Assembly: GCA_017473435.1 (NCBI GenBank)
Contig: JAFULG010000023.1
Span: 1 to 43,869, forward strand
Direction of reading: 5' to 3'
DNA: 43,869 bases
Source of the DNA: Clostridia bacterium
Lineage (GTDB): Bacteria; Bacillota; Clostridia; Oscillospirales; Acutalibacteraceae
The notes beneath the pieces were generated by a model. The model did not search any database. It saw only the letters and a list, made by a program, of their open reading frames with translations, and had not been told where the DNA came from. How positions within the stretch are numbered: the first letter of the stretch is position 1; every line of letters begins with the position of its first letter. Positions 1,390 to 16,714 of the stretch are shown piece by piece. The translations under genes and the position numbers were made by a program.

Positions 1390-1410
1390 ATTATTTTCCT
1401 TTCTAAGCGA

Positions 1411-1443
1411 TTAAACGGTGTACAACAAATATACACCGTTTAA
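1411..1443 (-). terminator. Hairpin between TPM gene and TMEM43-like gene
   Basis: TTAAACGGTGTA and TACACCGTTTAA form perfect 12-bp arms around a 9-base loop. No T-tract follows on the minus strand, so it is a weak terminator at best. It may be an attenuator or an RNA-processing or stability element that sets expression of the last operon gene. Confidence 0.5.
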
Positions 1444-1451
1444 TTTATTCA

Positions 1452-2645: not shown

Positions 2646-2658
2646 CGTCCTTACCTCC

Positions 2659-3747
2659 TTACATATTTCCCAGTGCCCAGAGCACAAAATAAGCAACTGC
2701 ACTCATGGGAGCTGTAAGAATTGCAACCTTTTTCCAGAAAGCACCCTTATCAAGAGGAAGGTCACCGACAAATTTACCCGTATGTCCATTCATGGCAAAG
2801 GTGTACTTTTTGCCGTTCCAGGTAGTATTGAGAAGCCATACGGGATAAAGGGCATACTTGTATGAGCCGTTAGCAATGTCAACCTGTGAGCCTTTGGGTA
2901 TAACTGCAGTATACATACGGTCCGTTACTGTCTTTTCAAGAGCAGAAACAACGCTGTTTTTCACTCTTTCGTTTGCCCTCGGAATACTTGCCTCAAGACC
3001 GACATCGTACTTGTCGGCAAGGAAGCCTGCCATGTAAGCAGTGCTGAAGGGAACAGCCTCATTTGCATTGAAGGGCTCAATTGATTCCATAAGAGTATCA
3101 TCCATTTTGGTTGAGCCGTCAACGGGAATGTTGGCAAAATTCATATTACCGCTGCGGTAGCAGCTGAAATAGGATGTTTCCGTATGATTGTAATTGCTGT
3201 CCGACCAGGTGCGTACTCTTTCGGCGGTGAAATCTGCAGCTGCAACCGCAGTACCCGTAAAGAGCCAATGAGGCACATAAACTCCCTTGATTTCATCTAT
3301 ATGATTCTGATCCTTAAAAATCTTTGGCACTATCTTCTTTGAAGCAACATATTTGTTGAGTGCTTCCTTTGCCGCCTTTTTATCATATTTGAAGGGAATA
3401 ATAAGATCAGGCTTAAGTCCGCCTGAAAACTGACTCGTAAGAACAACGGGATTACCGCAGTAGGGGCAGGATGTAGCTCCTGTGGTTTCATCTGCAACAA
3501 TTTCACCTGCACAGGATTTACAGGTGTAAACGCCCATTCCGTTTATCTCATCAGGCTTCCACTCGGCACCCTGTGAGCTCCAATTAAAATTATCCTGACC
3601 AATGGATGCGGATTTTTCGGCTGCCTGCTCCATTGCAGCTATGTCAAATTCTGTATCGCAATAAGGGCATTTAAGTGTCTGTGTCCCTGCATTAAATTCC
3701 ACGGCTCCGCCACAGCAAGGACATTTCTGTTCCAATATAGCTGACAA
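2659..3747 (-). CDS. Zinc-ribbon (TFIIB-type) protein with C-terminal membrane helix
   Basis: A 362-residue protein with two N-terminal zinc ribbons: CPCC at 9-12 with CPYC at 27-30, and CKSC at 76-79 with CPYC at 94-97. A long middle region follows (LIIPFKYDKKAAKEALNKYVASKK, then VYVPHWLFTG) and a C-terminal helix (about 338-358, KVAILTAPMSAVAYFVLWAL). Such proteins are annotated as TFIIB-type zinc-finger proteins in clostridia, but the middle and the membrane anchor argue against a transcription role. The layout suggests a cytoplasmic face built around the ribbons and attached to the membrane. It lies 2 bp after the anchored unknown and 13 bp before the TPM gene. The function is unknown, and conservation of the neighbourhood suggests a shared membrane complex. 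Confidence 0.75.
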   Translation of the reverse strand: MSAILEQKCPCCGGAVEFNAGTQTLKCPYCDTEFDIAAMEQAAEKSASIGQDNFNWSSQGAEWKPDEINGMGVYTCKSCAGEIVADETTGATSCPYCGNPVVLTSQFSGGLKPDLIIPFKYDKKAAKEALNKYVASKKIVPKIFKDQNHIDEIKGVYVPHWLFTGTAVAAADFTAERVRTWSDSNYNHTETSYFSCYRSGNMNFANIPVDGSTKMDDTLMESIEPFNANEAVPFSTAYMAGFLADKYDVGLEASIPRANERVKNSVVSALEKTVTDRMYTAVIPKGSQVDIANGSYKYALYPVWLLNTTWNGKKYTFAMNGHTGKFVGDLPLDKGAFWKKVAILTAPMSAVAYFVLWALGNM

Positions 3748-3749
3748 GG

Positions 3750-4280
3750 TTAATTACCTCCTTTTGTGAACATATTTAAAATTGAATAAATTTCCGTAAA
3801 AAGCATATCTCCGTCCTCCGGCAGCTCGTCCGAGCTTGAAACCGAATAGAATTCACCTTCTCCGTAAGTAACTGAGATAACTGTCTGAGGAGCATCAAGA
3901 ACGATTAAATCACTTTTCTCAAGCTTGCCCCACGAGAGAAAGCTACGTCTATAAAAGGCCCTTCGAAGTTCATTAATAGCATCGGTGCCTACCTCGATTG
4001 TATAGCTCTTCTCCTCTGCTCCGATATAGGGGCAGTCATAATACGACAGATATGTTTTATTATCTTCACCTGTGTAAACCTCTATATAGGACGAGCCGCC
4101 ATCCATACCTCCGCCCGTACTGTATCTGCAGGAGGTGATGGTAAAGCAGGGAGGCTTCACCATACCCGTGCCGTCAAGCATATGCTTTCCCGCAAAATGC
4201 TTCCACATAAAAACACCTGCCGTTATGAGTATTGCAACCGCTGTAAAAACAGCGATTGCAATTATAATTTTTTTAGTCAT
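3750..4280 (-). CDS. Membrane-anchored protein of unknown function
   Basis: A 176-residue protein with one N-terminal helix (about residues 4-27, KIIIAIAVFTAVAILITAGVF) that reads as an uncleaved anchor, followed by a soluble domain. The domain has a SCRYSTGGGMDGGSSYIEVYTGED segment rich in Gly, a short basic stretch (NELRRAFYRR) and beta-strand-like runs (LIVLDAPQTVISVTYG). I do not recognise the family. It lies 4 bp after the DUF4428 gene and 2 bp before the zinc-ribbon membrane protein, so it is certainly cotranscribed and perhaps part of the same assembly. The position after the anchor suggests that the domain is outside the cytoplasm. Confidence 0.7.
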   Translation of the reverse strand: MTKKIIIAIAVFTAVAILITAGVFMWKHFAGKHMLDGTGMVKPPCFTITSCRYSTGGGMDGGSSYIEVYTGEDNKTYLSYYDCPYIGAEEKSYTIEVGTDAINELRRAFYRRSFLSWGKLEKSDLIVLDAPQTVISVTYGEGEFYSVSSSDELPEDGDMLFTEIYSILNMFTKGGN

Positions 4281-4284
4281 TCAC

Positions 4285-5220
4285 TCAGCCTCGGGGAGCA
4301 CCGCAGGCGGCACAGAATTTTCCGCCGTCATTCTGCGCACCGCAGGAGGGACACGACCATACGGGAGATGCCGCCTGAGCAGCATAAGCGTTGTTCTGAA
4401 CGGGAGCATAGCCCTGCTGAGGCATCTGCTGCGCATACATATTCTGCTGAGGCTGAGCATACTGAGGCTGACCGTAGGAATTCTGCTGAGCGTAGGGCTG
4501 ACCTGCAGACTGACCGTACATACCCTGCTGCACAGGCTGACCGTAGGGATTGGGCTGTGCATACATATTCTGCTGAGGTGCGTAACCGCCCATGTTGCTC
4601 ATAGGCATACCGCCCATAGCGCCGCCGTTAACACCGAGGGCGTTCATAATATCCATACCCATTTTATGATAACGGTTATATTCCATTGAGCCCATACCCT
4701 CAACACGGAAGTTGTTGAGCTTAACCTCAAAATCGTCAAAATAGGGATTATTTACAAGGAACTTAAGCTTAAAATTATAGTAATATTTATATCTGGGCGG
4801 ATTGTAGTTTACACGCTGACCCTGACCATTCTGTGTATACTCTTCATCTCTGTCCTCGTCAATGTCAAGTCCGCAGGAGGTAATGGATGCGATAGGCATT
4901 ACATCGGGGTTTTCCTCATCCCACTTACCGGGCGCGTAACGTGAAACAACAAAGCTTCTGTTTGTCATATCAATATAAATCTTCTTGTCCTCACCGAGTG
5001 TAACTGAAGGACGGAAGGCGCGAAGAACATTTTTATTCTCCTCACGGTACTGAAGATGAGCCTTCATCTGCTCAAGGGTTGAATGTCTTCTGTCATCGCA
5101 GAAGGGTGAAAGCTTTTTTGCACAGTCCTTACACATATTGCCGTCTTCAAGCTTTCTGTTGCCGAGCATACCTATTTTCTCTCCGCAGATATCGCAGAAT
5201 TTCTTATCAAAAAGTCCCAT
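4285..5220 (-). CDS. DUF4428 zinc-ribbon protein with Q/Y/P-rich linker
   Basis: A 311-residue protein. The N-terminal DUF4428 zinc ribbon is clear: FCDICGEKIGMLGNRKLEDG then CKDCAKKLSPF (about 8-45). A domain of about 150 residues follows (RSFVVSRYAPGKWDEENPDV, then the YYYNFKLKFLVNNPYFDDFEVKL strands). After it comes a low-complexity linker of repeated QQNMYAQPNPYGQP-like units (about 215-285) and a C-terminal ribbon WSCPSCGAQNDGGKFCAACGA. No signal peptide or membrane helix is visible, so it is cytoplasmic. The C-terminal ribbon closely resembles those of the SPFH protein encoded 30 bp upstream, hinting that they bind a common partner or each other. The Q/Y-rich linker is unusual in a housekeeping protein and may favour self-association (inference). 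Confidence 0.8.
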   Translation of the reverse strand: MGLFDKKFCDICGEKIGMLGNRKLEDGNMCKDCAKKLSPFCDDRRHSTLEQMKAHLQYREENKNVLRAFRPSVTLGEDKKIYIDMTNRSFVVSRYAPGKWDEENPDVMPIASITSCGLDIDEDRDEEYTQNGQGQRVNYNPPRYKYYYNFKLKFLVNNPYFDDFEVKLNNFRVEGMGSMEYNRYHKMGMDIMNALGVNGGAMGGMPMSNMGGYAPQQNMYAQPNPYGQPVQQGMYGQSAGQPYAQQNSYGQPQYAQPQQNMYAQQMPQQGYAPVQNNAYAAQAASPVWSCPSCGAQNDGGKFCAACGAPRG

Positions 5221-5250
5221 AATAATTTCTCCTTTATATTTTATCTGAAT

Positions 5251-6669
5251 TTATTTTGCATCACTTTCATCGAAGATGTCACCGCATTCGGGACAGAACT
5301 TCGGAGGATTTTTCGGGTCAGCAGGCTGCCAACCACATTTATCGCACTGATATAAGGGTGCTCCTTCAGGCTTCTTTCCGCCACATTCGGGACAGAACTT
5401 ACCCTTGTTTACCGCGCCACAACTACAAGTCCACCCTTCTGCTTCTGCAGGCTTAGGTGCACCGCACTCCATACAGAACTTACCGCTGACCGTTGCTCCG
5501 CAAGCACATTTCCATCCGCCTTCCTGAGGCTTTGGTTCAGGCTTTTTAGCTCCACACTGAGGGCAGAAGTTACCTGTTGCTGTTGCTCCGCAGGCACACT
5601 GCCAACCGTTCTGCTGAGGCGCCGCTGCATTTGCCGCAGCCTGAGCCTGCTGCTGTGCCACACCTGCGTTATACATTGCCATAGGATCAAAGCCTGAGTT
5701 TGTACCCATAACAGCATTCATACCCATAAAGCCCATCATTGCGCCGTTGGGGTTGGCTGCTGCAGCTTCCATTGCTGCGGCTCTTGCATCTGCTTCTCTG
5801 CCTGCCATCATAAAGGGATTTGAGCCCATTGTGACGGCATCCTCCATCTGCTGTAACTTCGCTCTGTCTGCATCAGTAAGGTTGATGGGATTAAGAGCGA
5901 TGGAAGAAACGGAAATACCTCTCTTTTCTGTCCATGCATATTTAAGAGCATTGTTTACGGCATTTTTCAGCTCCGGAGTATGTGCCGGAATCTGAGCCGG
6001 TCTGAGTTCAAGTGCCGAAAGCTCTGCAAAGGCAGGCTGAAGTGCATCGATAAACTCAACCTTAAGCTGACCGTCAAGCTCTGCTCTGGTATATTCATAG
6101 GTTGCATTGCCGCACAGCTCAGTGTAGAAAAGAAGCGGGTCAGTAATCTTATAGGAATAAATACCGTTGCATCTTATCTGTACACTGCGGTAAAGGTTAA
6201 GCCTCTTGTTTACAATCTCAAACTCAAAGGGATTAGGTGTGCCGAATTTATTGTCGAGAATTTCCTTTGTGTTGAAATAATAAACTCTCTGATCCTTGGG
6301 TGCTTCACCGCCGTAGGTGAAACGCTTACCGATATTTTTAAAGGTTGTCTTCACGCTTTCACCGAATGAGCCGGCAAAAATGCTGGGCTCTGTTGAAGCG
6401 TCATAGGTGAATTCACCGGGCTCGGCACAGATTTCGACAACCTTGCCCTGCTCAACGATAATCATACACTGACCGTCAGCAACAACAATTCCCGAGCCTG
6501 ATGTGATGATGTTTTCGTCACCCTTGTAGTTTGATGAACGTCCTGTTGTTTTCTTCTGTCCCTTTCTCATAAGGACATCATTCGGTAATGATTCGCAAAC
6601 GAAAAATTCCTTCCACTGGTCAGCCATTACGCCGCCTGCAGCTCCGAGTGCAGCTTTAATAAGTCCCAT
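5251..6669 (-). CDS. SPFH/band-7 protein with four C-terminal zinc ribbons
   Basis: A 472-residue protein. Residues 1-70 (MGLIKAALGAAGGVMADQWKEFF, then VLMRKGQKKTTGRSSN) lead into an SPFH domain at about 70-285 with VEQGKVVEICAEPGEFTYD and an IRCNGIYSYKITDPLLFY core. This is the bacterial virion-core-like SPFH group. A glycine/alanine/methionine-rich stretch follows, then three CxCGA...FCxxCG ribbons and a fourth, YQCDKCGWQ with FCPECGD (about 350-472). SPFH proteins assemble into membrane-associated rings or microdomains. Here there is no clear transmembrane helix, only a hydrophobic N-terminus. It is the second gene of the operon, 27 bp after the small membrane protein and 30 bp before the DUF4428 gene, and is probably the scaffold. 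The domain call is sure and the role is inferred. Confidence 0.88.
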   Translation of the reverse strand: MGLIKAALGAAGGVMADQWKEFFVCESLPNDVLMRKGQKKTTGRSSNYKGDENIITSGSGIVVADGQCMIIVEQGKVVEICAEPGEFTYDASTEPSIFAGSFGESVKTTFKNIGKRFTYGGEAPKDQRVYYFNTKEILDNKFGTPNPFEFEIVNKRLNLYRSVQIRCNGIYSYKITDPLLFYTELCGNATYEYTRAELDGQLKVEFIDALQPAFAELSALELRPAQIPAHTPELKNAVNNALKYAWTEKRGISVSSIALNPINLTDADRAKLQQMEDAVTMGSNPFMMAGREADARAAAMEAAAANPNGAMMGFMGMNAVMGTNSGFDPMAMYNAGVAQQQAQAAANAAAPQQNGWQCACGATATGNFCPQCGAKKPEPKPQEGGWKCACGATVSGKFCMECGAPKPAEAEGWTCSCGAVNKGKFCPECGGKKPEGAPLYQCDKCGWQPADPKNPPKFCPECGDIFDESDAK

Positions 6670-6696
6670 ATAATCTTTCTCCTTTCGGGATTTAAT

Positions 6697-6969
6697 TTAC
6701 TTTTTTATATCTGATTTTGAATAAGGATTTTTATTCTCCTTTGGTGGGTCCTTGTAGTTCCCCGCCCGCGCAAGAGAGCCGAAAACGACAACACGCAAAG
6801 AAATAAACACCACCCATAATATGATGCTTATCACAAACCACCAAAGGGAAATCCCCTTCCAGAAATGCAGTCCGAGAAATATCCACGCGGGAACTGTCCA
6901 TTCAAGATTGAATAGTATGGACAGCAGAAGTGACAAAGCAAAACCACTTTTTTTCTTTGTCTTTCTCAT
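6697..6969 (-). CDS. Small two-helix membrane protein, first gene of operon
   Basis: A 90-residue protein with a basic N-terminus (MRKTKKKS), a hydrophobic run at about 8-33 (GFALSLLLSILFNLEWTVPA, then WIFLGLHF), a second helix at about 43-68 (WWFVISIILWVVFISLRVVVF) and a charged lysine-rich tail ending SKSDIKK. I do not recognise a named family. It is the first gene after promoter A (7008-7051), so it should be the most strongly transcribed of the seven genes. It could serve as the membrane attachment for the SPFH protein encoded 27 bp downstream, which lacks a clear transmembrane helix of its own. That role is inference. Confidence 0.7.
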   Translation of the reverse strand: MRKTKKKSGFALSLLLSILFNLEWTVPAWIFLGLHFWKGISLWWFVISIILWVVFISLRVVVFGSLARAGNYKDPPKENKNPYSKSDIKK

Positions 6970-7007
6970 TTAACTCACCGCCTGTACACATAATATCCCT
7001 ACATATA

Positions 7008-7051
7008 ATTATAAATATCGGTTCTTTCAAACACACCCTACAAATGTAGGG
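7008..7051 (-). promoter_or_regulatory. Promoter A with 16-bp palindromic operator
   Basis: On the minus strand, CCCTACATTTGTAGGG (7036-7051) overlaps by one base a poor -35 (GTGTGT, 7031-7036). A 17-base spacer and a consensus -10 TATAAT (7008-7013) follow. The operator centre is near -42.5. It drives the seven-gene operon 6969-637. The same arrangement, in the same 28-bp register, occurs at 9732, 11425 and 12980. Confidence 0.85.
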
Positions 7052-7096
7052 GTGTGACATAAAAAATACAGGCTTCAGATAATGCAGTTTTCACAA

Positions 7097-7123
7097 AAGG
7101 GACACTCACGGTGAGTGCCCCTT
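7097..7123 (-). terminator. Terminator of the FN3-protein gene
   Basis: The stem is AAGGG/CACTCAC with GTGAGTG/CCCTT, with a CG loop. On the minus strand it is followed by TTTTGTG. It lies 15 bp after the stop codon at 7139 and separates this unit from promoter A. Confidence 0.75.
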
Positions 7124-7138
7124 AAATACATACACTGT

Positions 7139-9694
7139 TTATTTTACTGTAACTGTCGCAGCTTTATAGCCACCGTTAACATTGCCGGATGGTGTCTTAA
7201 TGCCGGCGCGTACTGCGAAAGTATATTTCGAACCGGACTTAAGGCTGAAATTAAGATTCTGTACGGAAGAATAAGTCTTAAGGAACTTATAGCCTCCGTT
7301 GTCCACGCTGTAATAAACATGATACATTTCAGCGCCGCTTACAGCATCCCAGGTAACATTTACTTTTCCTTTTGAAGGTGAGCTGGCCTTTGCCGTTACA
7401 GTTGCAGGAAGTGTAGCTGTTGTAAATTCAACAAAATCACTCCAGATTACATTACCTGAGTTTATAATATACGGACGGATTGCAAAGGTATACTTCGTTC
7501 CTGCCTTCTGATTGGTAAAGGTATGGGTAAGAGCTGTAGTTGAATTTAATACAGTCTTCCAGGAAGAACCCGATTTCACGAAAATCCTGTAACCTGTTGC
7601 ACCTGCACATTTTGTCCAGTTAAGTGTAACTGAACTTGTAGTCTGTTTTGCTGTAACCTTTGCAGGTTTTACAGTTTTTGTTGCTGTTGCAATCTGGGTA
7701 AAATCACTCCATACAACCGTGTTGCCATTCTTTATGAAAGGACGTACTGCATAAATATACTTTGTTCCGGCATTGAGATTTTTAACCGTATATGTTGTTG
7801 CAGAAGTTGTATTTACTACACTCCATCCTGAACCCGACTTAACAAAAATTCTGTAGCCTGTTGCGCCTGCACATTTAGTCCAGTTGAGGGTAACAGAATT
7901 TGTAGTCTGAGTTGCAGTAACCTTTGCGGGTTTAACAGTCATTGTTGCTGTGGGAGTCTCCTTATAGTCACTCCATACAACAGTATTGCCGTTTCTTACA
8001 TAAGGACGTACAGCGAAGGTATACATTGTACCTGAGGAAAGACCCTTGACATCAACTGTTGTTGCTGTAGTTGAATTCATCGCCGTATTCCAGGAAGTTG
8101 AAGTGCCTACCTTGTAGAAAATTCTGTAGCCTGTTGCACCTGCACATTTTGCCCAAGTGAGTCTGATTGCATTTGCTCCGGGAGTCGCCTGTACATTTGC
8201 AACAACGGTTTTTGTTGCAGTATCACAGGTTGAATATTTTGAAGCCAATGTAAGATTGCCGTTATTTGTCCATGCGGCACGCACTGCAAAGGTATACATT
8301 GTGCCTGCTTTGAGGTTTTTAACTGTATATTCAACAGCTTTAACATTAGCTAGAAGCTTCCAGCCGCTACCTGATTTCTGATATACATTATAGCTTTCTG
8401 CACTCTGAACTGCTGACCACGTAAGCTTAATCTGATTTGTGGTCTGTGTTGCTGAAACTGTAACAGGTCTGTTGGAAAGCACATCCTTCTTTGTCTCTGT
8501 ACAGTTGGTGCACTTGTATTCCTTATAGCCGTCAGCAGCATAGGTGGGTACCTGATGCTTCACCATTGCAAAGTTGTGTCCCTTTGCGGCTACATTTTCA
8601 GTAGGCTGATCACCGCAAACGCTGCACTTGCTTACCTTTACACCGGGAGCGGTGCAGGTTGATGAATCGGTAACAACATAATATGTGTGAGCTGCAGGCT
8701 TTCCTTCTGTTTTGCCGCAGTATTCACAATGCTTTGCCTTTTTACAGGTTGCGTTTATCCAACTGTGGCTGTCACAGGGATTAATCAGTATATCTTCACC
8801 CTTGGGAAAATTCTTGATAAGGGAATCATAATCAACCAGAACATCCATACGGACATATTCAGCTATGTAGCCTTCAGCAAGAGCGTCACCAAGCTTATAG
8901 TTGTCACCTACAGCTTTAAATGCCATAAAATCCTTCTTGGGTGCGGATGAGCCGTCGTCAAAGCTCGGCTTTGATGTTTCATAGGAAATGGAGCAGTCGC
9001 TTACATATGACTTACCGGGAAGAGTATTGGTAAATGAAAAATCAATACCGGCTACCTTTGCGGTGATTTCGGAATCACCTGAAACTGAGAAGGTGAAATT
9101 GTCGAACGCATTGGCTGCATAATTGCAGAAGCTTATACCGTTGCCCCAGTACATCCAGTTGTAAATATTTGCTCCGTTGATTGAAAGAGCCGAACCGTCG
9201 ACTACCTTGATGCAATGAGCATAGTTATTACCGATTCCGTAATATCCGTTGGTTCCCATAACAACGTTTATATTATTAAGGATTCTTAGGGAAGCATTCT
9301 TGCCGTTGACGCAAATTGCAGAAGTGCCGGGAGCGGCAGAGTTAACTATAATATCACTTCTGGTTTTTCCGCTATTGAGAATAACAAGAGATGTATCGTT
9401 ACCTACAGTTATAAAATCTTTGATTTTTTCTCCTTCGCCTGTTATGGAATAACCGTTGAGATCGATGGCAAAAGCCTCTTTATTCTTTATAACAGCGAAG
9501 GTCTGATCTGCAGTTATGTTTGCGATAAGACGAATTGCCGAATTTCTTCCCGCAATAGCAATTGCATTGTTGAATTCGGTTGCATTCTTTACCTCATAAA
9601 CCGTTAAATCTGATTCAGCAGACGCCATCAGGGACGCTGCGCTTAACAGCATAAGCATACACAGCACAAGACTCAATATTTTTTTGGCTTTCAT
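7139..9694 (-). CDS. Secreted multidomain protein with five fibronectin-III-like repeats
   Basis: An 851-residue protein. It has a signal peptide (MKAKKILSLVLCMLMLLSAASLMASA, cleavage before ESDL). A region at about 28-300 has alternating short strands (AIRLIANITADQTF, LVILNSGKTRSDIIV, ALSINGANIYNW) that reads as a right-handed beta-helix. A Cys/His-rich segment at about 308-410 has CEYCGK, CSVCGD and CTNCTE pairs. Five FN3 modules run from about 425 to 851, recognisable by repeated VTATQTTNSVTLNWTKCAGA and GTKYTFAIRPYI motifs. There is no LPXTG or other wall anchor, so it may be released or held non-covalently. It forms its own unit between promoter B and the terminator at 7097. The FN3 modules are close copies, with two nearly identical, showing recent internal duplication. 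The ligand is unknown. Confidence 0.85.
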   Translation of the reverse strand: MKAKKILSLVLCMLMLLSAASLMASAESDLTVYEVKNATEFNNAIAIAGRNSAIRLIANITADQTFAVIKNKEAFAIDLNGYSITGEGEKIKDFITVGNDTSLVILNSGKTRSDIIVNSAAPGTSAICVNGKNASLRILNNINVVMGTNGYYGIGNNYAHCIKVVDGSALSINGANIYNWMYWGNGISFCNYAANAFDNFTFSVSGDSEITAKVAGIDFSFTNTLPGKSYVSDCSISYETSKPSFDDGSSAPKKDFMAFKAVGDNYKLGDALAEGYIAEYVRMDVLVDYDSLIKNFPKGEDILINPCDSHSWINATCKKAKHCEYCGKTEGKPAAHTYYVVTDSSTCTAPGVKVSKCSVCGDQPTENVAAKGHNFAMVKHQVPTYAADGYKEYKCTNCTETKKDVLSNRPVTVSATQTTNQIKLTWSAVQSAESYNVYQKSGSGWKLLANVKAVEYTVKNLKAGTMYTFAVRAAWTNNGNLTLASKYSTCDTATKTVVANVQATPGANAIRLTWAKCAGATGYRIFYKVGTSTSWNTAMNSTTATTVDVKGLSSGTMYTFAVRPYVRNGNTVVWSDYKETPTATMTVKPAKVTATQTTNSVTLNWTKCAGATGYRIFVKSGSGWSVVNTTSATTYTVKNLNAGTKYIYAVRPFIKNGNTVVWSDFTQIATATKTVKPAKVTAKQTTSSVTLNWTKCAGATGYRIFVKSGSSWKTVLNSTTALTHTFTNQKAGTKYTFAIRPYIINSGNVIWSDFVEFTTATLPATVTAKASSPSKGKVNVTWDAVSGAEMYHVYYSVDNGGYKFLKTYSSVQNLNFSLKSGSKYTFAVRAGIKTPSGNVNGGYKAATVTVK

Positions 9695-9731
9695 AAAAAC
9701 AACTCCTTTGAATAAATATTCTGCCGTAATT

Positions 9732-9775
9732 ATTGTACATTACCGCAAATTGAAATACACCCTACAAATGTAGGG
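9732..9775 (-). promoter_or_regulatory. Promoter B with 16-bp palindromic operator
   Basis: CCCTACATTTGTAGGG (9760-9775) overlaps a poor -35 (GTGTAT, 9755-9760). A 17-base spacer and -10 TACAAT (9732-9737) follow. The ATG of the FN3 gene is 38 bp downstream of the -10 box. The register is the same as in promoters A, C and D. Confidence 0.85.
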
Positions 9776-9821
9776 GTGTCAAAGCAAAAAAAACAATTGA
9801 ATATTAAGGCAATTTGCACAA

Positions 9822-9854
9822 AAACGCCCCCGAAAATATCGGGGACGCTTTTTT
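9822..9854 (-). terminator. Terminator of the HEAT lipoprotein gene
   Basis: GCGTCCCCGA pairs with TCGGGGGCG and is followed on the minus strand by a run of T. It lies about 30 bp past the stop at 9882. The AAAAAA on the other side could help it work in both directions. Confidence 0.85.
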
Positions 9855-9881
9855 CAATATTTCAGCAAGCTTATCTGTTAA

Positions 9882-11099
9882 TTATTTTGCTGCAAGTGCT
9901 GCATCAAGCTTGTCCTGTAATGAATTTTTATCAAATTCTTTTTCAGTTGCATCAATACCTGCCTGAAGAGCTTCAAGGTCAGCTTTGTCACCGAATGTTG
10001 CTACCACCTTAATGCATTGCTCTCTGAGAAGTCTGTCCTTGCTTGCATTGTTAAAGATATTTTTCATTATCTCAACAACCTCTTCAGCATCAAAGTATGA
10101 AGCCTCGGCAAACCACTTGTCATAGTTTGTTTTACCCTTAAGTGAAATTTTGTTAACTACCTGCCAGTTGGGAAGACCTGTATCCTCAAAAGTAGCCTTG
10201 AAGTATTCCATAGTTGCCTTATAAGCGGCTTCGGAATAAGCATCGTGTGCCGGATAGTTATACCACATTCTGCAAAGAGCATCGCCTGCATTTGAATGAA
10301 GATCAGCCTGATTTTCGTCCAAAAGGATTTCCTTGAGAACAGGAACAAATCTGTCATCCTTAAGCTTGTAGCAATAAAGAACAGCTTCCTTTCTTACATC
10401 CTTGTCTTCATCCTCAATCAGCTTGAACATCATCTGAGCAAGAGGCTCTGTGTCATCTGTGCGGATATACTGAACAGCATAGCAGACAACTCTTCTGATA
10501 TTTGCATCAGCCGAATCGCTGAGTGAAATTACAAAATCAATAAATTCCTTATTCTCGCAGTAATTATACGATGTATAGCGTAATGCCTGATAAATCGCAA
10601 TGCTCTCCTTTTCAGAAAGAATCTTTGTGAGAACAGGAGTATAAGCTGCTACAGTTTCATCGAAAAGCTGATTGTTAAGCTGCTGATAATAGTAGGCTCT
10701 TACCTTGGCTGAGCCGTTTGCAAGAACAGCATCGGCACATTCAAGCACATTGGGGAATGTGGCCTTTTCACCCTTGAGGAACTTAAGAGCCTCGTCAGTT
10801 GCGTTTTCTTCAAAATCACATCTGTCATCAACCTCTGCAAAATCAATAGTCTCAATAATAGCGACATATTCATCTGCTGTGGGAGCCGTCTTGTCCTTAA
10901 CGAGCTTTGAAACGAGGTCTTCACCTGTCATTTCAGCGTACTGCTCAAGCTTGATTCCGTGAATCTCGCCCTTGATGGGAGCTTCTGAAGCAGTGGTGCT
11001 TTCGGGCACATCCGGGGTTTCGGGTGTCTCTCCGCCGCCGCATGCCGCAAATGTAAAGAGCATAAGAACGGCAAGAATAAGTGCTGTAAATTTCTTCAT
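9882..11099 (-). CDS. HEAT-repeat-like lipoprotein
   Basis: The start at 11099 is chosen because AAAGGAG lies 7 bases upstream. It yields 405 residues with a lipoprotein signal, MKKFTALILAVLMLFTFAAC, with Cys20 as the lipid-modified residue and GGGETPETP as linker. The mature part is almost all helical and repetitive: VLECADAVLANGSAKVRAYYYQQL, SDSADANIRRVVCYAVQYI, EDEDKDVRKEAVLYCYKL and SKDRLLREQCIKVVATFGDKADLEAL resemble HEAT repeats with the conserved D-x-x-V/I-R pattern. HEAT proteins act as protein-binding scaffolds. It is attached to the outer face of the membrane. It is transcribed alone from promoter C, but a 279-bp palindromic element lies in its long leader. The partner is unknown. 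Confidence 0.78.
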   Translation of the reverse strand: MKKFTALILAVLMLFTFAACGGGETPETPDVPESTTASEAPIKGEIHGIKLEQYAEMTGEDLVSKLVKDKTAPTADEYVAIIETIDFAEVDDRCDFEENATDEALKFLKGEKATFPNVLECADAVLANGSAKVRAYYYQQLNNQLFDETVAAYTPVLTKILSEKESIAIYQALRYTSYNYCENKEFIDFVISLSDSADANIRRVVCYAVQYIRTDDTEPLAQMMFKLIEDEDKDVRKEAVLYCYKLKDDRFVPVLKEILLDENQADLHSNAGDALCRMWYNYPAHDAYSEAAYKATMEYFKATFEDTGLPNWQVVNKISLKGKTNYDKWFAEASYFDAEEVVEIMKNIFNNASKDRLLREQCIKVVATFGDKADLEALQAGIDATEKEFDKNSLQDKLDAALAAK

Positions 11100-11129
11100 A
11101 ATGATTCTCCTTTTTTGTTTTTGTAAGAT

Positions 11130-11408
11130 AAGTTGGCGGTAATCGAACACAATAAGTCTGTAATGCCCGATTTATGCCGCCTTTGATGATTTTTTCTCCT
11201 CGCAATACGCGAGTATGGCTTTGTCGAAGAAAATCCCAAATGCAACACAACTCGGACATTTCAGATTCTTCGAAGTTTAACGGGTGGAGATTTTTATTGC
11301 AGCAAGGCAAAAACCGCAAGGAATACTTGTGTATTTCGAGGATTTTTAACGAAGCTGCGGTAAAAATATACCCCGTTAAACCTTATTGAGTTCGACTACC
11401 GCCAACTT
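11130..11408. mobile_element. MITE-like element in the leader of the HEAT lipoprotein gene
   Basis: A 279-bp non-coding block is bounded by 27-bp terminal inverted repeats (11130-11156 and 11382-11408) that match at 25 of 27 positions. They begin AAGTTGGCGGTA and end CAATAAG. Inside there is further nested self-complementarity, for example GTTTAACGGG near 11275 against CCCCGTTAAAC near 11371. No transposase or credible gene is inside. It sits between promoter C and the lipoprotein ATG, so the transcript must carry a very large hairpin. Confidence 0.75.
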
Positions 11409-11424
11409 ACTCTTACTTGATTTT

Positions 11425-11468
11425 ATTCTACAATATCCGAATTTACATGTCACCCTACAAATGTAGGG
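11425..11468 (-). promoter_or_regulatory. Promoter C with 16-bp palindromic operator
   Basis: CCCTACATTTGTAGGG (11453-11468) overlaps the -35 (GTGACA, 11448-11453). A 17-base spacer and -10 TAGAAT (11425-11430) follow. The MITE-like element begins just downstream. The target is the HEAT lipoprotein gene, with a leader of about 320 bases. Confidence 0.83.
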
Positions 11469-11482
11469 TGAGAGCATAAAAA

Positions 11483-12949
11483 TCATCTGATAATAAGTCT
11501 GCCCGTAATGTCACGGTCAAGGTTCTGATGATTTGAAAGGTACTCATCAAAAATACCGAGGCATGAGGTCGCAACAACAACAGGCTTACCGTTTTCAAAG
11601 ATTTCATCAAGTGAAATGTTGAAGAAGTCCTCAAGGTTATTGAAATGGAATTGCTGTAGACCTACTCTGTAAATCTTATCATCCTTCAATGGCTTACCCT
11701 TGAAATCAAATCGCAGGAACTCATGAGATTCCCTGTCATAAACCACTCTCACACCCGATGAGAATTGATAAAACTCACAGTGTGCACCTTCCCACACCTC
11801 GTCACGCACCATATGTTTAATCATCCGCTTGAGCTGCTCACCCGTAACCTTAATCATATAAGCTGCATCATCATACGGGAAGCACTCGCAAAGATCGGAG
11901 TAAAGTACAATGGGACCAAGCTCCGTACTGCGGACACTGCCTGAGCCTAAAAGCATAATATCAAGGCCGAGGCACTCACACATAATATCAGAAAGCAAGC
12001 CTCCCAAAGCTGTTTCCTGAGTACGTGAGGGATGGGTAAGACACCTTTTGAGTCTTGTTACTACTCTGCCGTATTTTGCATCTGTCTGTTCCTTGTACCG
12101 CGACAGAATGCTTTCAAGTTTTTCGTCTCTCGGACAATGCTTATCGTTGATAGGAATAGTTTTCCATGTGTAGCTGTCAATACAGTTGTTGTCGGTATCA
12201 ATCATAATATCAAAGCGGCCTATCTGATCTGTGCCCGTGCCTGCCTGCACAATAACAACATCATTAACTACAGCAGGCTCGTCAATAAAGGTGTGCGAAT
12301 GACCGCCCACAATTACATCAACACCCCAGTCAGGGTCAAGCTGTGCGGCAAGCTTTTTATCCTCCTCGAAGCCTATATGTGTAAGAAGCACAGTGAAGTC
12401 GATATCAATTGCATTATAGGTATTACAGATTTTACCCACCTCCTGAGCAGCCTCATCAATGTCAACAAAAGTGCCGATGATACCGTCATTCCTGGTCTGT
12501 GAAAGCACCTCCTGAGTGAGGATGCCGATAAACAAAACCTTCATTCCGTCAATTTCGATAATATGGTGCGGTCTGAAAAGTCTTGCTCCGTTTGTTGTGA
12601 TATGCAAATTCGCATTTATAATAGGAAACTTTGCGCACTTTTCAATAAAGAGCAGATGTGCAATACCGTAATCTGTTTCGTGGTTGCCGGGTGTAACAAC
12701 ATCAGGTGAAAGCATATTCATAATCTCAATAGTTGAAAGCCCCTGAAATTCAGAGTCAATAACCGAACCGCGGAACATATCGCCTGCTATGCAGTAAATA
12801 GTGTTCTTTTCTTCTTCTCTGACCTTACTTACATAGCCCGACAGCATAGAAACGCCGCCCACAAGCTCGTTGTCTATATCTTCGGCAAGGAAATCACCGT
12901 GCATATCGTTTGAGTGAAGTATGGTAAGCTTTTTAAGATTCTTTTCCAT
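11483..12949 (-). CDS. Cytoplasmic 5'-nucleotidase-family metallophosphatase
   Basis: A 488-residue protein with the two-domain plan of UshA/5'-nucleotidases. The N-terminal metallophosphatase domain carries the metal-binding motifs LHSNDMHGD (about 10-18), GDMFRGS, GNHETDYG and GGHSHTF. The C-terminal 5'-nucleotidase domain carries FPYDDAAYMIKVTGEQLKRMI. Family members hydrolyse nucleotides, cyclic nucleotides or nucleotide sugars. Unlike most of the family it has no signal peptide (MEKNLKKLTILHSND), so it should act in the cytoplasm, as YunD-like proteins do. It is the sole gene of the unit driven by promoter D, and no terminator is visible before promoter C, so readthrough is possible. The substrate cannot be read from the sequence. 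Confidence 0.88.
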   Translation of the reverse strand: MEKNLKKLTILHSNDMHGDFLAEDIDNELVGGVSMLSGYVSKVREEEKNTIYCIAGDMFRGSVIDSEFQGLSTIEIMNMLSPDVVTPGNHETDYGIAHLLFIEKCAKFPIINANLHITTNGARLFRPHHIIEIDGMKVLFIGILTQEVLSQTRNDGIIGTFVDIDEAAQEVGKICNTYNAIDIDFTVLLTHIGFEEDKKLAAQLDPDWGVDVIVGGHSHTFIDEPAVVNDVVIVQAGTGTDQIGRFDIMIDTDNNCIDSYTWKTIPINDKHCPRDEKLESILSRYKEQTDAKYGRVVTRLKRCLTHPSRTQETALGGLLSDIMCECLGLDIMLLGSGSVRSTELGPIVLYSDLCECFPYDDAAYMIKVTGEQLKRMIKHMVRDEVWEGAHCEFYQFSSGVRVVYDRESHEFLRFDFKGKPLKDDKIYRVGLQQFHFNNLEDFFNISLDEIFENGKPVVVATSCLGIFDEYLSNHQNLDRDITGRLIIR

Positions 12950-12979
12950 TTTTTGTTCTCCTCGTTTCTCTTTTATTAA

Positions 12980-13023
12980 ATTATAAAGCCCACCCTATCT
13001 TAAGTCACCCTACAAATGTAGGG
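12980..13023 (-). promoter_or_regulatory. Promoter D with 16-bp palindromic operator
   Basis: CCCTACATTTGTAGGG (13008-13023) overlaps a poor -35 (GTGACT, 13003-13008). A 17-base spacer and consensus -10 TATAAT (12980-12985) follow. It drives the metallophosphatase gene and lies immediately after the response-regulator gene's terminator. Confidence 0.85.
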
Positions 13024-13032
13024 TGAAGGTAT

Positions 13033-13064
13033 AAAAAAACCACCGATAAAATCGGTGATTTTTT
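13033..13064 (-). terminator. Terminator of the two-component operon
   Basis: CACCGAT (13041-13047) pairs with ATCGGTG (13051-13057) around a 3-base loop. T-tracts on both sides make it a likely bidirectional terminator just after the response-regulator stop at 13076. Confidence 0.85.
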
Positions 13065-13075
13065 ACAAGGATAAT

Positions 13076-13705
13076 TTAATTTTTACTTTCAGGAATGATT
13101 ATACCACTTTCCCTTGCCTTTACGGCAAGCTCTGTTCTTGTGCGGTAACCCGTTTTTTCCATAAGCACTTGAATATAATCCCTTACAGTATACTGGGAAA
13201 TATTCAGTCTTTCTGCAATTTCTGCATTCGTGTAGCCCAGAATCACCTCTCTTAGAACTGCAATTTCACGCTCGGAAAGGTCTGTGCTTTTAATGTTGCC
13301 GAAGCTGACCGACGGTGTTTTATCGGGATAAATATTCTCCCCCGCCATTGTTCTGTCCATAAGCTCTAAAATAGGCTCTTCGCTTACCTCCTTGTACCAG
13401 AAGGAGTCAACACCTATGGTTTTTGCCCTTTCAAGATATGACACCTCAGGCATTGAAGTAACAATAATTATTTTTATGTTCGGATGCTTTTGCTTGATTC
13501 TTTCTGCAGCATCAAGTCCGTTTGAGTTAAGCTCGGTGCAGACATCCATAAGTATCAGGTCAATCTGTGACTGATCGCAGTATATGTCTGTCATATCGGC
13601 ATTTTTAATTGAATGAACAAGTCTGTATTTGTCGCTCATTGAAATGAAAGCTTCAAAAAGCTGTCGTGGCATAGCCTGATCTTCAACGACCATTACATTA
13701 TACAT
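13076..13705 (-). CDS. NarL/LuxR-family response regulator
   Basis: A 209-residue protein. The receiver domain (1-120) has the acidic pair Glu8-Asp9, the phospho-acceptor Asp54 in LILMDVCTE, Thr83 in IIVTS and Lys105 in FWYKEVS. The C-terminal LuxR-type helix-turn-helix (about 142-205) has LSEREIAVLREVILGYTNAE, then IAERLNISQYTVRDYIQ. Such regulators bind DNA as dimers when phosphorylated. The gene overlaps the kinase gene by 8 bp and is the last of a three-gene operon. It is the obvious candidate to recognise the CCCTACATTTGTAGGG palindromes, whose 7-2-7 spacing is that known for NarL-class sites. That link is inference from proximity and geometry. No palindrome precedes its own operon, so it is not obviously autoregulated. 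Confidence 0.92.
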   Translation of the reverse strand: MYNVMVVEDQAMPRQLFEAFISMSDKYRLVHSIKNADMTDIYCDQSQIDLILMDVCTELNSNGLDAAERIKQKHPNIKIIIVTSMPEVSYLERAKTIGVDSFWYKEVSEEPILELMDRTMAGENIYPDKTPSVSFGNIKSTDLSEREIAVLREVILGYTNAEIAERLNISQYTVRDYIQVLMEKTGYRTRTELAVKARESGIIIPESKN

Positions 13706-15002
13706 ATAACTCCTCCTTTGCGGGAATTTTAAGTCTTAATATAAACCTCGGGTAAATATCGGTTTCCATTATACCGCCTGCAGCTTCAACGCTCTGACGA
13801 AGAGACGACAGACCGCCGCCCTCTGAAATTTCACCTTCGGGCTGCACACCATCATTGGTATACTCAATAATAAAGTGGGTATAGGTGCTGTAAAGCTTAA
13901 CCTTCAGCTCCCTTGCCTTTGCATGATGTACGGCATTGGTGAGACTCTCTCTTGCACCGCTCATTACAAATCTCAGAAGACTCTTATATTTCGGTACCGT
14001 GCCGTCGATTATAAGTCTGATACCCATAATTTTAGCCGCATCGTAAAGCTCATCTAAGTTCACATCGTCTTTATTCTCTGCAAAGCCACCATCAAAAAGA
14101 TAAAGAGTTCCGTTCCAGATGTCGATAAGCTCTTGTTTTGTTATATGGGAGTCGGAGTTTTCAATATATCTCTTTGTTGCAAGCTGAGCCTTGCCGAGCA
14201 TATCGTGAATGTTGACCTTTGCGGTGAGTATCTCTCTTTCACGGGTTATATCATAGACATTTTCACCGTATTCCTGAAGTCGTCTGTTGAGTTCACGAAG
14301 CTCGTTATTGGATCTGCGAAGCCTGTTGCTGAGTGCAAACTTTTTTGTTATATCGGTAGCACGGATTTCAAAGAGCTTTTCACCGCCGATTTCTCTTTCG
14401 ATTTTTGTGAAGCTGAGAGTAGTGTTACCCAGCACCGTAACAATAGGATTATCACCTGTCTGTTGAGCGATGTTATCAGGTAGAACTTCTCCCTTTTTCA
14501 GCTTTCTCCAGAATTCATTTGCATCAAAGAGCGGCTCGCCTGTAATAAAGCGGCAAAGATTATCCATTCTGTGGTTGATAAGCTTCGGCACACCGTCTTT
14601 GTTGTGATAGCAAAGACCTGCAGGCAATCTGTCAAGCCCCTCTTTAATTGAAGCAGGAGTAATATGCTCACGCTTCCATTTTAAGACTGCATAAAGAGCA
14701 AAAGCAGAGATAACCGCAAGAATAATCAGGAGTACTACCATCAGAATAAATTGCTCACCCATAAGCATAATATCAAAACCGTCTGTTCTGTGATTTTTGC
14801 GATAATTGAAATTGGCTGAAACAGCTGTTAAGTATAGCACACAAGTAAACGCTGTAAGAACAGTGTTGGCAACGATGTGGTGCTTTTTGAATTCAAAAAT
14901 AACACAGGACACCACGCAGTAGATATTTATTACAAGCAGAATGAGGTTGAAGAAAATCAGTGTGTACTGCAGATATTCGGGCAAATCAAAAAAATTTATC
15001 AT
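13698..15002 (-). CDS. Sensor histidine kinase (NarX/DegS-like ATPase)
   Basis: A 434-residue protein with three membrane helices (about 12-38, 42-62 and 82-107) and a PAS-like segment (about 118-220, RLPAGLCYHNKDGVPKLINHRM). A coiled region (NELRELNRRLQEYGENVYDI) leads to the likely phospho-acceptor His266 in KVNIHDMLGKAQLA. The HATPase domain has the N box RESLTNAVHHAKA (351-363), G1 NDG (383-385) and G2 GGGLSSLRQSVEAAGG. The N-box form with HHA is typical of kinases paired with LuxR-type regulators. It overlaps the sensor gene upstream by 4 bp and the regulator downstream by 8 bp, so all three proteins are made together. The signal is unknown. Confidence 0.88.
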   Translation of the reverse strand: MINFFDLPEYLQYTLIFFNLILLVINIYCVVSCVIFEFKKHHIVANTVLTAFTCVLYLTAVSANFNYRKNHRTDGFDIMLMGEQFILMVVLLIILAVISAFALYAVLKWKREHITPASIKEGLDRLPAGLCYHNKDGVPKLINHRMDNLCRFITGEPLFDANEFWRKLKKGEVLPDNIAQQTGDNPIVTVLGNTTLSFTKIEREIGGEKLFEIRATDITKKFALSNRLRRSNNELRELNRRLQEYGENVYDITREREILTAKVNIHDMLGKAQLATKRYIENSDSHITKQELIDIWNGTLYLFDGGFAENKDDVNLDELYDAAKIMGIRLIIDGTVPKYKSLLRFVMSGARESLTNAVHHAKARELKVKLYSTYTHFIIEYTNDGVQPEGEISEGGGLSSLRQSVEAAGGIMETDIYPRFILRLKIPAKEELYV

Positions 15003-16651
15003 ACAGCATCACCGCCTTTCACTCTCAGAGTTACATAAACGGTGTCATCTTCCGATGTCTGTATAAGTTCACCGCAGAGCTTATGAGCAGTGTCATAAAA
15101 CCTATGTAATATATGAGGCTCCTTATTTGTATCAGCAGTTATTCTGAAGCTAAAGCCGTCATCAAAGCTGATTTTTGCTGTTACCGCGTAAAGCTCAGGC
15201 AGAAGCTCCTCAAGTACAGCCTGCCACAAGTCAAAGCAGAGAAGGATAAGGTCAGCATCAAGCTTCTTGTGTTTGGCAGTGTACACATCAGAAACACCAC
15301 CGTAGAGTCTTATATATTCCGAGGATTCCTTAAGGCTGAGATAAAGTTCCTCAGAGTTATTAAGCTGCCTTCTGTCTTTAAGCAAGGAGAGGTTTGCTCT
15401 TCTTTTCACATAACAGTTAAGAATACAGATATGAGCCATATTCTTTCTGAAATCGCCGTCGGTGTCAATAAGCCCTGATATCATTTCAAGCTCCGGTCTT
15501 ACAAGCTCGGAAATCGAGTCGTAAAGTCTTGTCTGCTCGGCAATTTTTGCTCTCTGCTCACGAATTTCATTCTCAGCACGAAGCAGGTCGCCTTCTTCAG
15601 AAAGGCTCTGACTGATCTGTTCGAGCCGTTCATTCATTTCATTGACGGCAGTCATATCCTCAGTCCAGTAAACATATCCGCCTGAAATACGGTTTGAAAG
15701 CAGAAGTGTATTTTTGTCTGTAAAAACATTTTTATCCTTTGCCTCGTTCATCTGCGCTTTAGTAAGCTTCAGAGCATTGTCGGAACGGTAAACAACAATA
15801 TCATCGAAGCCGGCAATCTGAAAAGCGGCACTTGACTTTGAAACAATTTCACCGTAAGCACTGTTTGATGGCATAATGCCGATACGGATACTGCTTTCAA
15901 GCATAGCAATAAAAATAAAGCAATGGGTTTCGGGCAGGTTGAATGGTGCAACAGGCCACAAATCTAAAATATAGTCACTGAGAATATAAACTGAACCAAG
16001 GGCTAGCCAGAACACCGGCATCCATGCCCTTTTTTTATTAACCGCTCTGCACTTTACAGAAAGTATAACAACCGCAGCAATAAGGAAGAAATAAATCCAC
16101 GCTGTTGAAATATAGAAGAGGACACCCCAATCGTACTGCTGATCCCACGCGACAAAATCAAGATTGAAGCTGAAAGCAAGCTGGTGTACATCATTAGTCA
16201 GATACAGTGCAACAAGCACGCCTGCTAAAGCAAAAAGGATATAAAATATTTTCGGCAGTCTGTAGTCTTCCTGTTTGCCGACTCTGAATGAAATTATATA
16301 TGCAAGATAAGTTGCAAAAATCTGCGGAACATAGTAGAGGTACCACAAAAAACGCCCTGCAAAATTACCGTCAAGATAAATCCTGTGCTTTGCCGCACCG
16401 AAAAGGACATACATAACCATAAAGAATACAACAGCAAGTATAAGGCGTCGGATTTTAACCGAAAGGATACTTCTTTCGATATAGATACCCCAGGAGAAAA
16501 TAATACCTAAATAAATAATATTGGTGTAAACGAATGCAATAGTTCCTAAAGAAGCTTCAGACGGAACAATTGCTCTTAAGATACTTGCCGACAGAAAAAG
16601 AACGCCTGATAAGATAGCAGGAAATTGTTTGATTTTGTTCTTCTGCGGCAT
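14999..16651 (-). CDS. 7TM kinase-like sensor with degenerate ATPase domain
   Basis: The start at 16651 is preferred because GAAGGGA lies upstream and because the -10 box of its promoter overlaps the earlier ATG at 16687. The protein is then 550 residues. The N-terminal half has seven or eight hydrophobic helices (FPAILSGVLFLSASILRAIV, then LILAVVFFMVMYVLFGA and others). A PAS-like segment follows (FQIAGFDDIVVYRSDNAL), then a helical segment (EQRAKIAEQTRLYDSISELV) and a kinase-like C-terminus with MAHICILNCYVKRRANLSLL. The ATPase part lacks a recognisable N box and glycine boxes. I infer a signal-sensing partner or pseudokinase that works with the kinase encoded next (4-bp overlap). It heads the operon. 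Confidence 0.75.
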   Translation of the reverse strand: MPQKNKIKQFPAILSGVLFLSASILRAIVPSEASLGTIAFVYTNIIYLGIIFSWGIYIERSILSVKIRRLILAVVFFMVMYVLFGAAKHRIYLDGNFAGRFLWYLYYVPQIFATYLAYIISFRVGKQEDYRLPKIFYILFALAGVLVALYLTNDVHQLAFSFNLDFVAWDQQYDWGVLFYISTAWIYFFLIAAVVILSVKCRAVNKKRAWMPVFWLALGSVYILSDYILDLWPVAPFNLPETHCFIFIAMLESSIRIGIMPSNSAYGEIVSKSSAAFQIAGFDDIVVYRSDNALKLTKAQMNEAKDKNVFTDKNTLLLSNRISGGYVYWTEDMTAVNEMNERLEQISQSLSEEGDLLRAENEIREQRAKIAEQTRLYDSISELVRPELEMISGLIDTDGDFRKNMAHICILNCYVKRRANLSLLKDRRQLNNSEELYLSLKESSEYIRLYGGVSDVYTAKHKKLDADLILLCFDLWQAVLEELLPELYAVTAKISFDDGFSFRITADTNKEPHILHRFYDTAHKLCGELIQTSEDDTVYVTLRVKGGDAV

Positions 16652-16685
16652 AAGCTTCCCTTCTTTCATATCCGGAGTCAGGTTC

Positions 16686-16714
16686 ATTATATATTAAAGT
16701 AAAAGAATTATCAA
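16686..16714 (-). promoter_or_regulatory. Promoter of the two-component operon
   Basis: On the minus strand, TTGATA (16709-16714), a 17-base spacer and TATAAT (16686-16691). There is no palindromic operator. The -10 box overlaps the ATG at 16687, which rules out that start. Confidence 0.8.

Follow-up and report, generated by a model that had tools for sequence, protein, structure and literature searches.

LuxR belongs to the same helix-turn-helix (HTH) family as the NarL-type response regulators. In Escherichia coli, NarL binds as a dimer to 7-2-7 sites, which are inverted heptamers 2 bp apart, and at activated promoters these sites are described at -40 to -49 (napF) and -38 to -47 (yeaR) (PMC4549865). 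For the lux box, an inverted repeat with its centre at -42.5 is described (PMC3376562). SPFH, zinc-ribbon and TPM membrane proteins are reported from one operon, pspA-ydjGHI, in Bacillus subtilis (PMC8581546, PMC11237479), where, under sigma-W control, the SPFH protein YdjI acts together with YdjG and YdjH in recruiting PspA to the membrane (PMC8581546). Two-component operons linked to pspA or PspC have already been reported in Firmicutes (PMC11237479). A kinase-like partner without catalytic residues, the pseudokinase ChrS, has been described in Corynebacterium (PMC9491836).

The window analysed here, a stretch of 43,869 nucleotides from a Clostridia bacterium, contains a NarL/FixJ-type response regulator gene, genes for two membrane sensor partners, and four copies of a 7-2-7 palindrome (Table 1). 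The source genome is 2.56 Mb in 91 contigs and 96.88% complete. As described for NarL, the system combines a receiver and GerE HTH with 7-2-7 inverted-repeat sites near promoters. It differs from NarL in its operator letters, in having a single site per unit at a register that does not vary, in its compact local regulon, and in its two membrane partners of another kind. Unlike LuxR, which uses a 20-bp box and responds to an autoinducer, it has a response regulator. Whereas sigma-W and PspA are the elements described for pspA-ydjGHI, a NarL-type operator is found here and the genome has no PF04012 match. The degenerate partner kinase resembles RetS, and RetS structures are among the fold matches of HK562; in contrast to RetS and to ChrS as reported, the 7TM sensor is encoded beside a probable catalytic kinase. 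NarL-type 7-2-7 activators are already known, and the mechanism is of a known kind. What appears to be new is a regulon that is local and dedicated, a sensor in two parts, and a frozen geometry with co-drifting operator and helix. No paper on the module family, the fixed register or operator recoding was found by titles and abstract beginnings, in searches that covered few subscription papers. Searches on the NarL helix code, 7TM-pseudokinase modules and surface-protein-linked LuxR-type systems likewise found none on the module family by title or abstract start, and a search of paper text for the operator motif letters gave no relevant title among the matches listed.

Table 1. Features of the locus (positions in the window).
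Feature	Position	Strand	Evidence and remarks
Operator 1, CCCTACATTTGTAGGG	13008..13023	-	motif scan of window and genome, register inspection
Operator 2 palindrome	11453..11468	-	motif scan of window and genome, register inspection
Operator 3 palindrome	9760..9775	-	motif scan of window and genome, register inspection
Operator 4 palindrome	7036..7051	-	motif scan of window and genome, register inspection
-10 box TATAAT of operator 1	12980..12985	-	22 bp from palindrome; -35-like GTGACT at 13003-13008
-10 box TAGAAT of operator 2	11425..11430	-	22 bp from palindrome; -35-like GTGACA at 11448-11453
-10 box TACAAT of operator 3	9732..9737	-	22 bp from palindrome; -35 position is GTGTAT
-10 box TATAAT of operator 4	7008..7013	-	22 bp from palindrome; -35 position is GTGTGT
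HK562, 7TM sensor with degenerate histidine-kinase-like C-terminal half	14999..16687	-	HisKA_7TM below cut-off; model and fold matches
HK434, probable catalytic sensor kinase	13698..15002	-	invariant kinase residues; no Pfam match
NarL/FixJ-type response regulator, receiver and GerE HTH	13076..13705	-	PF00072 and PF00196 over cut-off
Metallophosphatase / 5'-nucleotidase-like protein	11483..12949	-	PF00149, PF02872; downstream of operator 1
HEAT-repeat protein, lipoprotein-like signal	9882..11150	-	PF13646; downstream of operator 2; likely ATG start 11099
Secreted FN3-repeat protein	7139..9694	-	PF00041; downstream of operator 3
Seven-gene SPFH operon	637..6969	-	downstream of operator 4
SPFH operon: small TM protein, SPFH	SPFH 5251-6669	-	PF13421 over cut-off in operon
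SPFH operon: DUF4428	4285-5220	-	
SPFH operon: ORF	3750-4280	-	
SPFH operon: zinc-ribbon protein	2659-3747	-	zinc-ribbon models below cut-off
SPFH operon: TPM	1452-2702	-	PF04536 over cut-off in operon
SPFH operon: ORF	637-1389	-	

All four palindromes lie at exactly the coordinates given by the first-pass annotation. They are intergenic among minus-strand genes and read in the same direction as these genes. A scan of the window at up to 3 mismatches gave eight matches on the two strands, that is, the four sites and no fifth CCCTACATTTGTAGGG-like place (shuffled sequences: mean 0.21, largest 2). The annotation had named equal abundance of the palindrome elsewhere in the genome as evidence against a regulon. 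Scanning the 2.56-Mb genome at 0-2 mismatches instead recovered the four cluster sites and one 2-mismatch place on contig 6 (C6:60874), which we regard as background level because the reversed control pattern also gives two matches per strand at 2 mismatches genome-wide.

The palindromes cover -50 to -35 in all four promoters when the -10 box is counted as -12 to -7. Their centre is therefore at -42.5, as had been proposed. The spacing described earlier as exactly 28 bp is indeed identical in all four, except that 28 counts to the far (last transcribed) base of the box and the true gap is 22 bp. The -35 hexamers had been called poor throughout. Scored against TTGACA at a 17-bp spacer, this description fits GTGTGT and GTGTAT (2/6 matches each) but not GTGACA (5/6) or GTGACT (4/6). 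The promoters thus have the class II arrangement, a site near -41.5/-42.5 beside a poor -35, with the -35 poor in two and fair in two. The spacer bases do differ between copies, as had been noted, but the TG is not the sole shared flank, since a T-tract upstream of the palindrome is also shared. This tract (window 6700-13100 and genus loci L046-L060) lies 10-14 nt upstream, with T in 23, 23, 25, 28 and 24 of the 29 genus sites, column by column. In our reading, the tract at operator 1 is the tail of an upstream terminator. Across the genus the tract may be an UP element or may represent terminator tails, and no T-tract was found at the same place among 32 lined-up sites outside the clade.

The genes downstream of the four sites include an operon in which SPFH, zinc-ribbon and TPM proteins occur together, the combination that defines a ydjGHI-type operon. 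No PspA homologue (PF04012, PspA_IM30) was matched in the 96.88%-complete genome, with the same profile matching 9 of 14 genomes as a control; the SPFH/zinc-ribbon/TPM operon thus occurs without a detectable PspA homologue. A 281-bp element (11129-11409) with 28-nt terminal inverted repeats, 93% complementary, lies between promoter 2 and the HEAT gene and has two partial relatives (77% and 84%) elsewhere in the genome. Its appearance is that of a MITE within the 5' leader of the HEAT gene. In the related genome G001, the HEAT frame begins 78 bp after its site.

Within the genus, CCCTACANNTGTAGGG is present in 12 of 34 genomes with 1 to 4 copies each, and its reversed control in none of the 34. 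The site set comprises 29 sites in these 12 genomes, 28 of them exact and one, in G001, with one mismatch. To assign a -10 box to each site, both strands were searched at gaps 15-31 and the best match was taken; equal matches were resolved in favour of the gap closest to 22.4. The comparison of promoters in related genomes that the first-pass annotation had suggested bears out the register: a -10 box (at most 1 mismatch) lies downstream of 29/29 sites, with a gap of 22 bp in 17 and of 23 bp in 12, and TG directly follows the palindrome in every one. Ten of the twelve 23-bp sites make up all sites of six genomes (G003, G009, G010, G013, G014 and G015); G001 and G019 contribute one each, in both cases the site proximal to the regulator. 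SPFH operons, FN3 or leucine-rich-repeat surface genes, HEAT genes and metallophosphatase genes stand behind the genus sites in varying order. Two operators 49-50 bp apart serve back-to-back divergent promoters in G020 and G031 (L056 976-1040, L058 7917-7982); the G031 pair heads an SPFH operon and an FN3 gene, and the G020 neighbours are of the same gene kinds. In a survey of 398 genomes, evenly sampled from the larger group, the exact palindrome was found in three (the source genome, its congener G031, and G199) and the reversed control in two. The match in G199, which belongs to another genus, was not counted; A and T runs flank it like a terminator, and no -10 box is present at the register in the stretch examined.

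The GerE (LuxR-type HTH) domain of the 209-aa response regulator scores 52.1 bits against a PF00196 cut-off of 23.5, and its recognition helix region reads SQYTVRDYIQ. Residues D9, D54, T83 and K105, which include the phospho-acceptor Asp and the Thr/Lys expected of a receiver, are invariant in 21 aligned regulators. The regulator has a match at E <= 1e-25 in 18 of the 34 genus genomes, 10 at 68-100% identity and 8 only at 40-56%. All 10 genomes with a close orthologue carry the palindrome, and none of the 8 with only distant homologues does. Over the 34 genomes, site and close orthologue are both present in 10, the regulator alone in 0, the site alone in 2 and neither in 22 (Fisher p = 5e-7, the Fisher tests treating related genomes as independent). 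The two genomes with a site and no regulator or kinase match are G005 (72% complete), where 0.4 kb of contig remains beyond the last site, and G009, which is 98% complete and has its site on a 10-kb contig. The physical linkage of regulator and regulon claimed earlier is present in the source genome and fails in G031, where both sites and the regulator all persist on different long contigs at least 30 kb apart; it also fails for one site each in G003, G010 and G019, which is on another contig.

The register was further examined in relatives outside the palindrome clade. An alignment of 21 regulators served as the query, and the best 80 of 341 confirmed relatives, mostly Clostridia, were sampled. 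The records of many sampled relatives name rumen samples. The outside-clade set contains 87 loci, taken from L061-L071 and L076-L153. L111 and L119 were omitted because, judged by length, their contigs are those of L066 and L067, and L074 and L075 because they belong to the clade. The 83 loci with a complete recognition helix form a second set. The 87 loci were searched for 7-2-7 palindromes of at least 6/7 with a perfect TATAAT downstream, and the number at each gap between 8 and 60 was recorded. For palindromes no farther than 2.5 kb from the regulator, this sample, built on the best 80 of 341 relatives, gave nine at gap 22 and none at gap 23, whereas the other 51 gaps averaged 0.51 and none exceeded 3. 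Farther than 2.5 kb from the regulator, gap 22 had one against a mean of 1.47. The peak was weaker with one -10 mismatch allowed (16 at gap 22, the other gaps averaging 5.82 and reaching 13 at most). When regulator flanks and direction were considered, a gap-22 site was found in 25 of the 83 loci (again a sample built on the best 80 of 341 relatives), compared with 1-10 for gaps 12-39; at this threshold it was absent from the other 58, and the 25 include picks (L110, L142) that differ from the class site. Restricting the flank search to palindromes of at least 6/7 left 13 at gap 22 versus 0-2 at gaps 14-35. TG follows the palindrome in 14 of the 25 gap-22 sites compared with 22 of 136 at decoy gaps (p = 6e-5).

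The operator letters at this register vary with the recognition helix. Similarity of gap-22 operators tracks helix similarity (Mantel r = 0.41, p = 0.001, over 284 pairs from 25 loci with regulator identity below 80%), and the 13 better palindromes give r = 0.47, p = 0.004; pairs at 80% or above were dropped, phylogeny being otherwise uncorrected. The test was not significant at seven other testable gaps, where it had little power because only 6-10 loci were available at each. Ten regulators of the TVRDY class go with operator CCCTACA/TGTAGGG. The site TCAGCC..GGCTGA, searched at up to 2 mismatches with a -10 box at 22-23 bp, occurs in 10 of 17 TVK[ST]HI loci and is absent from 7, versus 0 of 66 others (best 80 of 341 relatives); the p value of 8e-9 is optimistic, since the class was defined on the same loci. 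L109 (TVKSHIR) falls outside the TVK[ST]HI rule, with a TCAC-type TCACTTGTGA instead of TCAGCC, and TCACTTGTGA is also the operator of the TVKA[HY]VR class (L066, L067). All four NIRWH loci (L132, L140, L141, L142) carry CTATTAC-TT-GTG(A/C)TAG. Sites of the CTATTACTTGTG(A/C)TAG type occur in 5 of the 83 loci, namely these four and L131. The apparent exception L131 has two such sites, although its best regulator has another helix; about 0.3 kb from one of them, the locus encodes a second regulator with the NIRWH helix CTKANIRWHLGKIL. The DNVKYHIRN class has CTACCC/GGGTAG in L128, L138 retaining the right half, and the ERTVKYH class (L118, L139) has an operator with CTGTAC. A search for repeated palindromes within loci proved too noisy to rely on, beyond pointing to the TCAC sites of G030. 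Autoregulation is suggested for L066, where a second site stands before the HK562 gene at a distance of 22 bp from TATAAT; a CTACANNTGTAG site was searched for upstream of HK562 in the window and not found. Downstream of the regulator in L064 and L068, a long inverted repeat with TTAATCACTTGTGGG arms lies, by eye, about 23-24 bp upstream of TATAAT, possibly a paired operator.

The first-pass annotation had named the adjacent NarL/LuxR-type regulator as the binder of the 7-2-7 site. Co-occurrence, the outside-clade register and the covariation of helix and operator all agree with this assignment, and the palindrome is very probably the landing site of the neighbouring signal-responsive regulator. 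Retention of the geometry among relatives while operator letters and recognition helix change together would give each lineage a private switch.

Two membrane proteins encoded beside the regulator are candidates for its input. In HK434, residues H266, N356 and G396-G397-L398 are invariant in 18 aligned sequences, and H266 is followed by D in 14 of the 18, suggesting that it is a probable catalytic sensor kinase. HK562 was modelled from 17 sequences (mean pLDDT 79.9, pTM 0.50). Its C-terminal half resembles histidine-kinase cores (best Foldseek E 1.1e-5, with low TM-scores), with matches to DesK from 2.5e-4 and RetS from 1.8e-3. No His is conserved at 70% or more after residue 345 among the 17 sequences. 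From these features we infer that HK562 is a 7TM pseudokinase sensor. A promoter-like TTGATA-17-TATAAT at 16686-16714 overlaps the start of the HK562 frame, and HK562 may therefore begin at a downstream ATG.

We consider it quite likely that these genes constitute a dedicated two-component module, in which a regulator dimer would bind the palindrome and activate a local surface/SPFH regulon. HK562, whose kinase core is apparently dead, would sense an envelope or extracellular cue and work with the catalytic HK434. HK434, as its intact motifs suggest, would phosphorylate Asp54 of the regulator. The regulator dimer would then bind CCCTACA-TT-TGTAGGG with one HTH per arm, a step strongly supported by the comparison among relatives. 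The site abuts a weak -35 keeping the core TG, and we therefore propose that the dimer bound at -50 to -35 activates transcription through a class II-type contact with RNA polymerase. This would agree with the geometry, in which the distance to the -10 box is fixed at 22 bp, or 23 bp in some relatives. The metallophosphatase, the HEAT protein, the FN3 surface protein and the SPFH/zinc-ribbon/TPM operon would be switched on together.

The same regulator could instead bind the palindrome and repress, its dimer at -50 to -35 blocking access of sigma to the -35. The palindrome does touch the first -35 base, GTGACA or GTGACT at a 17-bp spacer with a good -10 box could be active alone, and NarL itself is described as a repressor of frdA (PMC4549865). 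A repressor needs no fixed register, yet a peak at 22 bp is seen across loci with different operators, and the gap is 22-23 bp at 29/29 clade sites. Two of the four -35 hexamers, moreover, match at only 2/6 positions. We therefore consider repression unlikely.

Binding by a different protein, a BlaI/CopY-type repressor encoded elsewhere, is suggested by the palindrome core TACANNTGTA, which we take to resemble BlaI/CopY operators, and by three PF03965 proteins encoded in the genome. Yet TACANNTGTA is absent from about 1.4 kb upstream of all three PF03965 genes, and the one match in their loci (L007) is downstream, inside a coding frame. Regulator-linked palindromes of the relatives, at the same register, lack TACA/TGTA and follow the regulator helix. 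The three genes are on other contigs, and with this lack of linkage and the covariation with the regulator the BlaI/CopY repressor was set aside as very improbable. The palindromes might also be no operators at all but part of a promoter duplication, of a repeat with dispersed copies, or of terminator hairpins. Two of the four score as terminator-like stems, the G199 match has its terminator-like flanks, and in G003, G009, G010, G013 and G014 the palindrome, read on the strand opposite the promoter, is followed by a T-run. In the gene direction, however, the two stems enclose a 4-nt loop, and the T runs in their tails are only 3 long; spacer bases vary between copies while the position is fixed, and elsewhere the letters change together with the regulator helix. 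We find this reading hardly credible.

Activation by the neighbouring regulator thus remains our preferred reading. With a slight lean in its favour, we further propose a large Clostridia family of 7TM-pseudokinase/kinase/NarL-type modules, each privately wired to neighbouring surface genes, in which the geometry (palindrome, TG, 17 bp, -10) would be frozen while the half-site letters and a few helix residues co-drift. A target set and a likely operator can be assigned to this uncharacterised Clostridia signalling family from sequence alone, and an SPFH membrane operon would thereby be tied to a NarL-type system. The regulator-operator pairs of constant geometry are offered for the study of DNA choice by LuxR-type HTH domains. 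If the family reading is true, the frozen geometry and the co-drift of 7-bp half-site and helix would therefore make it a natural data set for a helix-to-operator code, and mutually insulated switches could be taken from the family.
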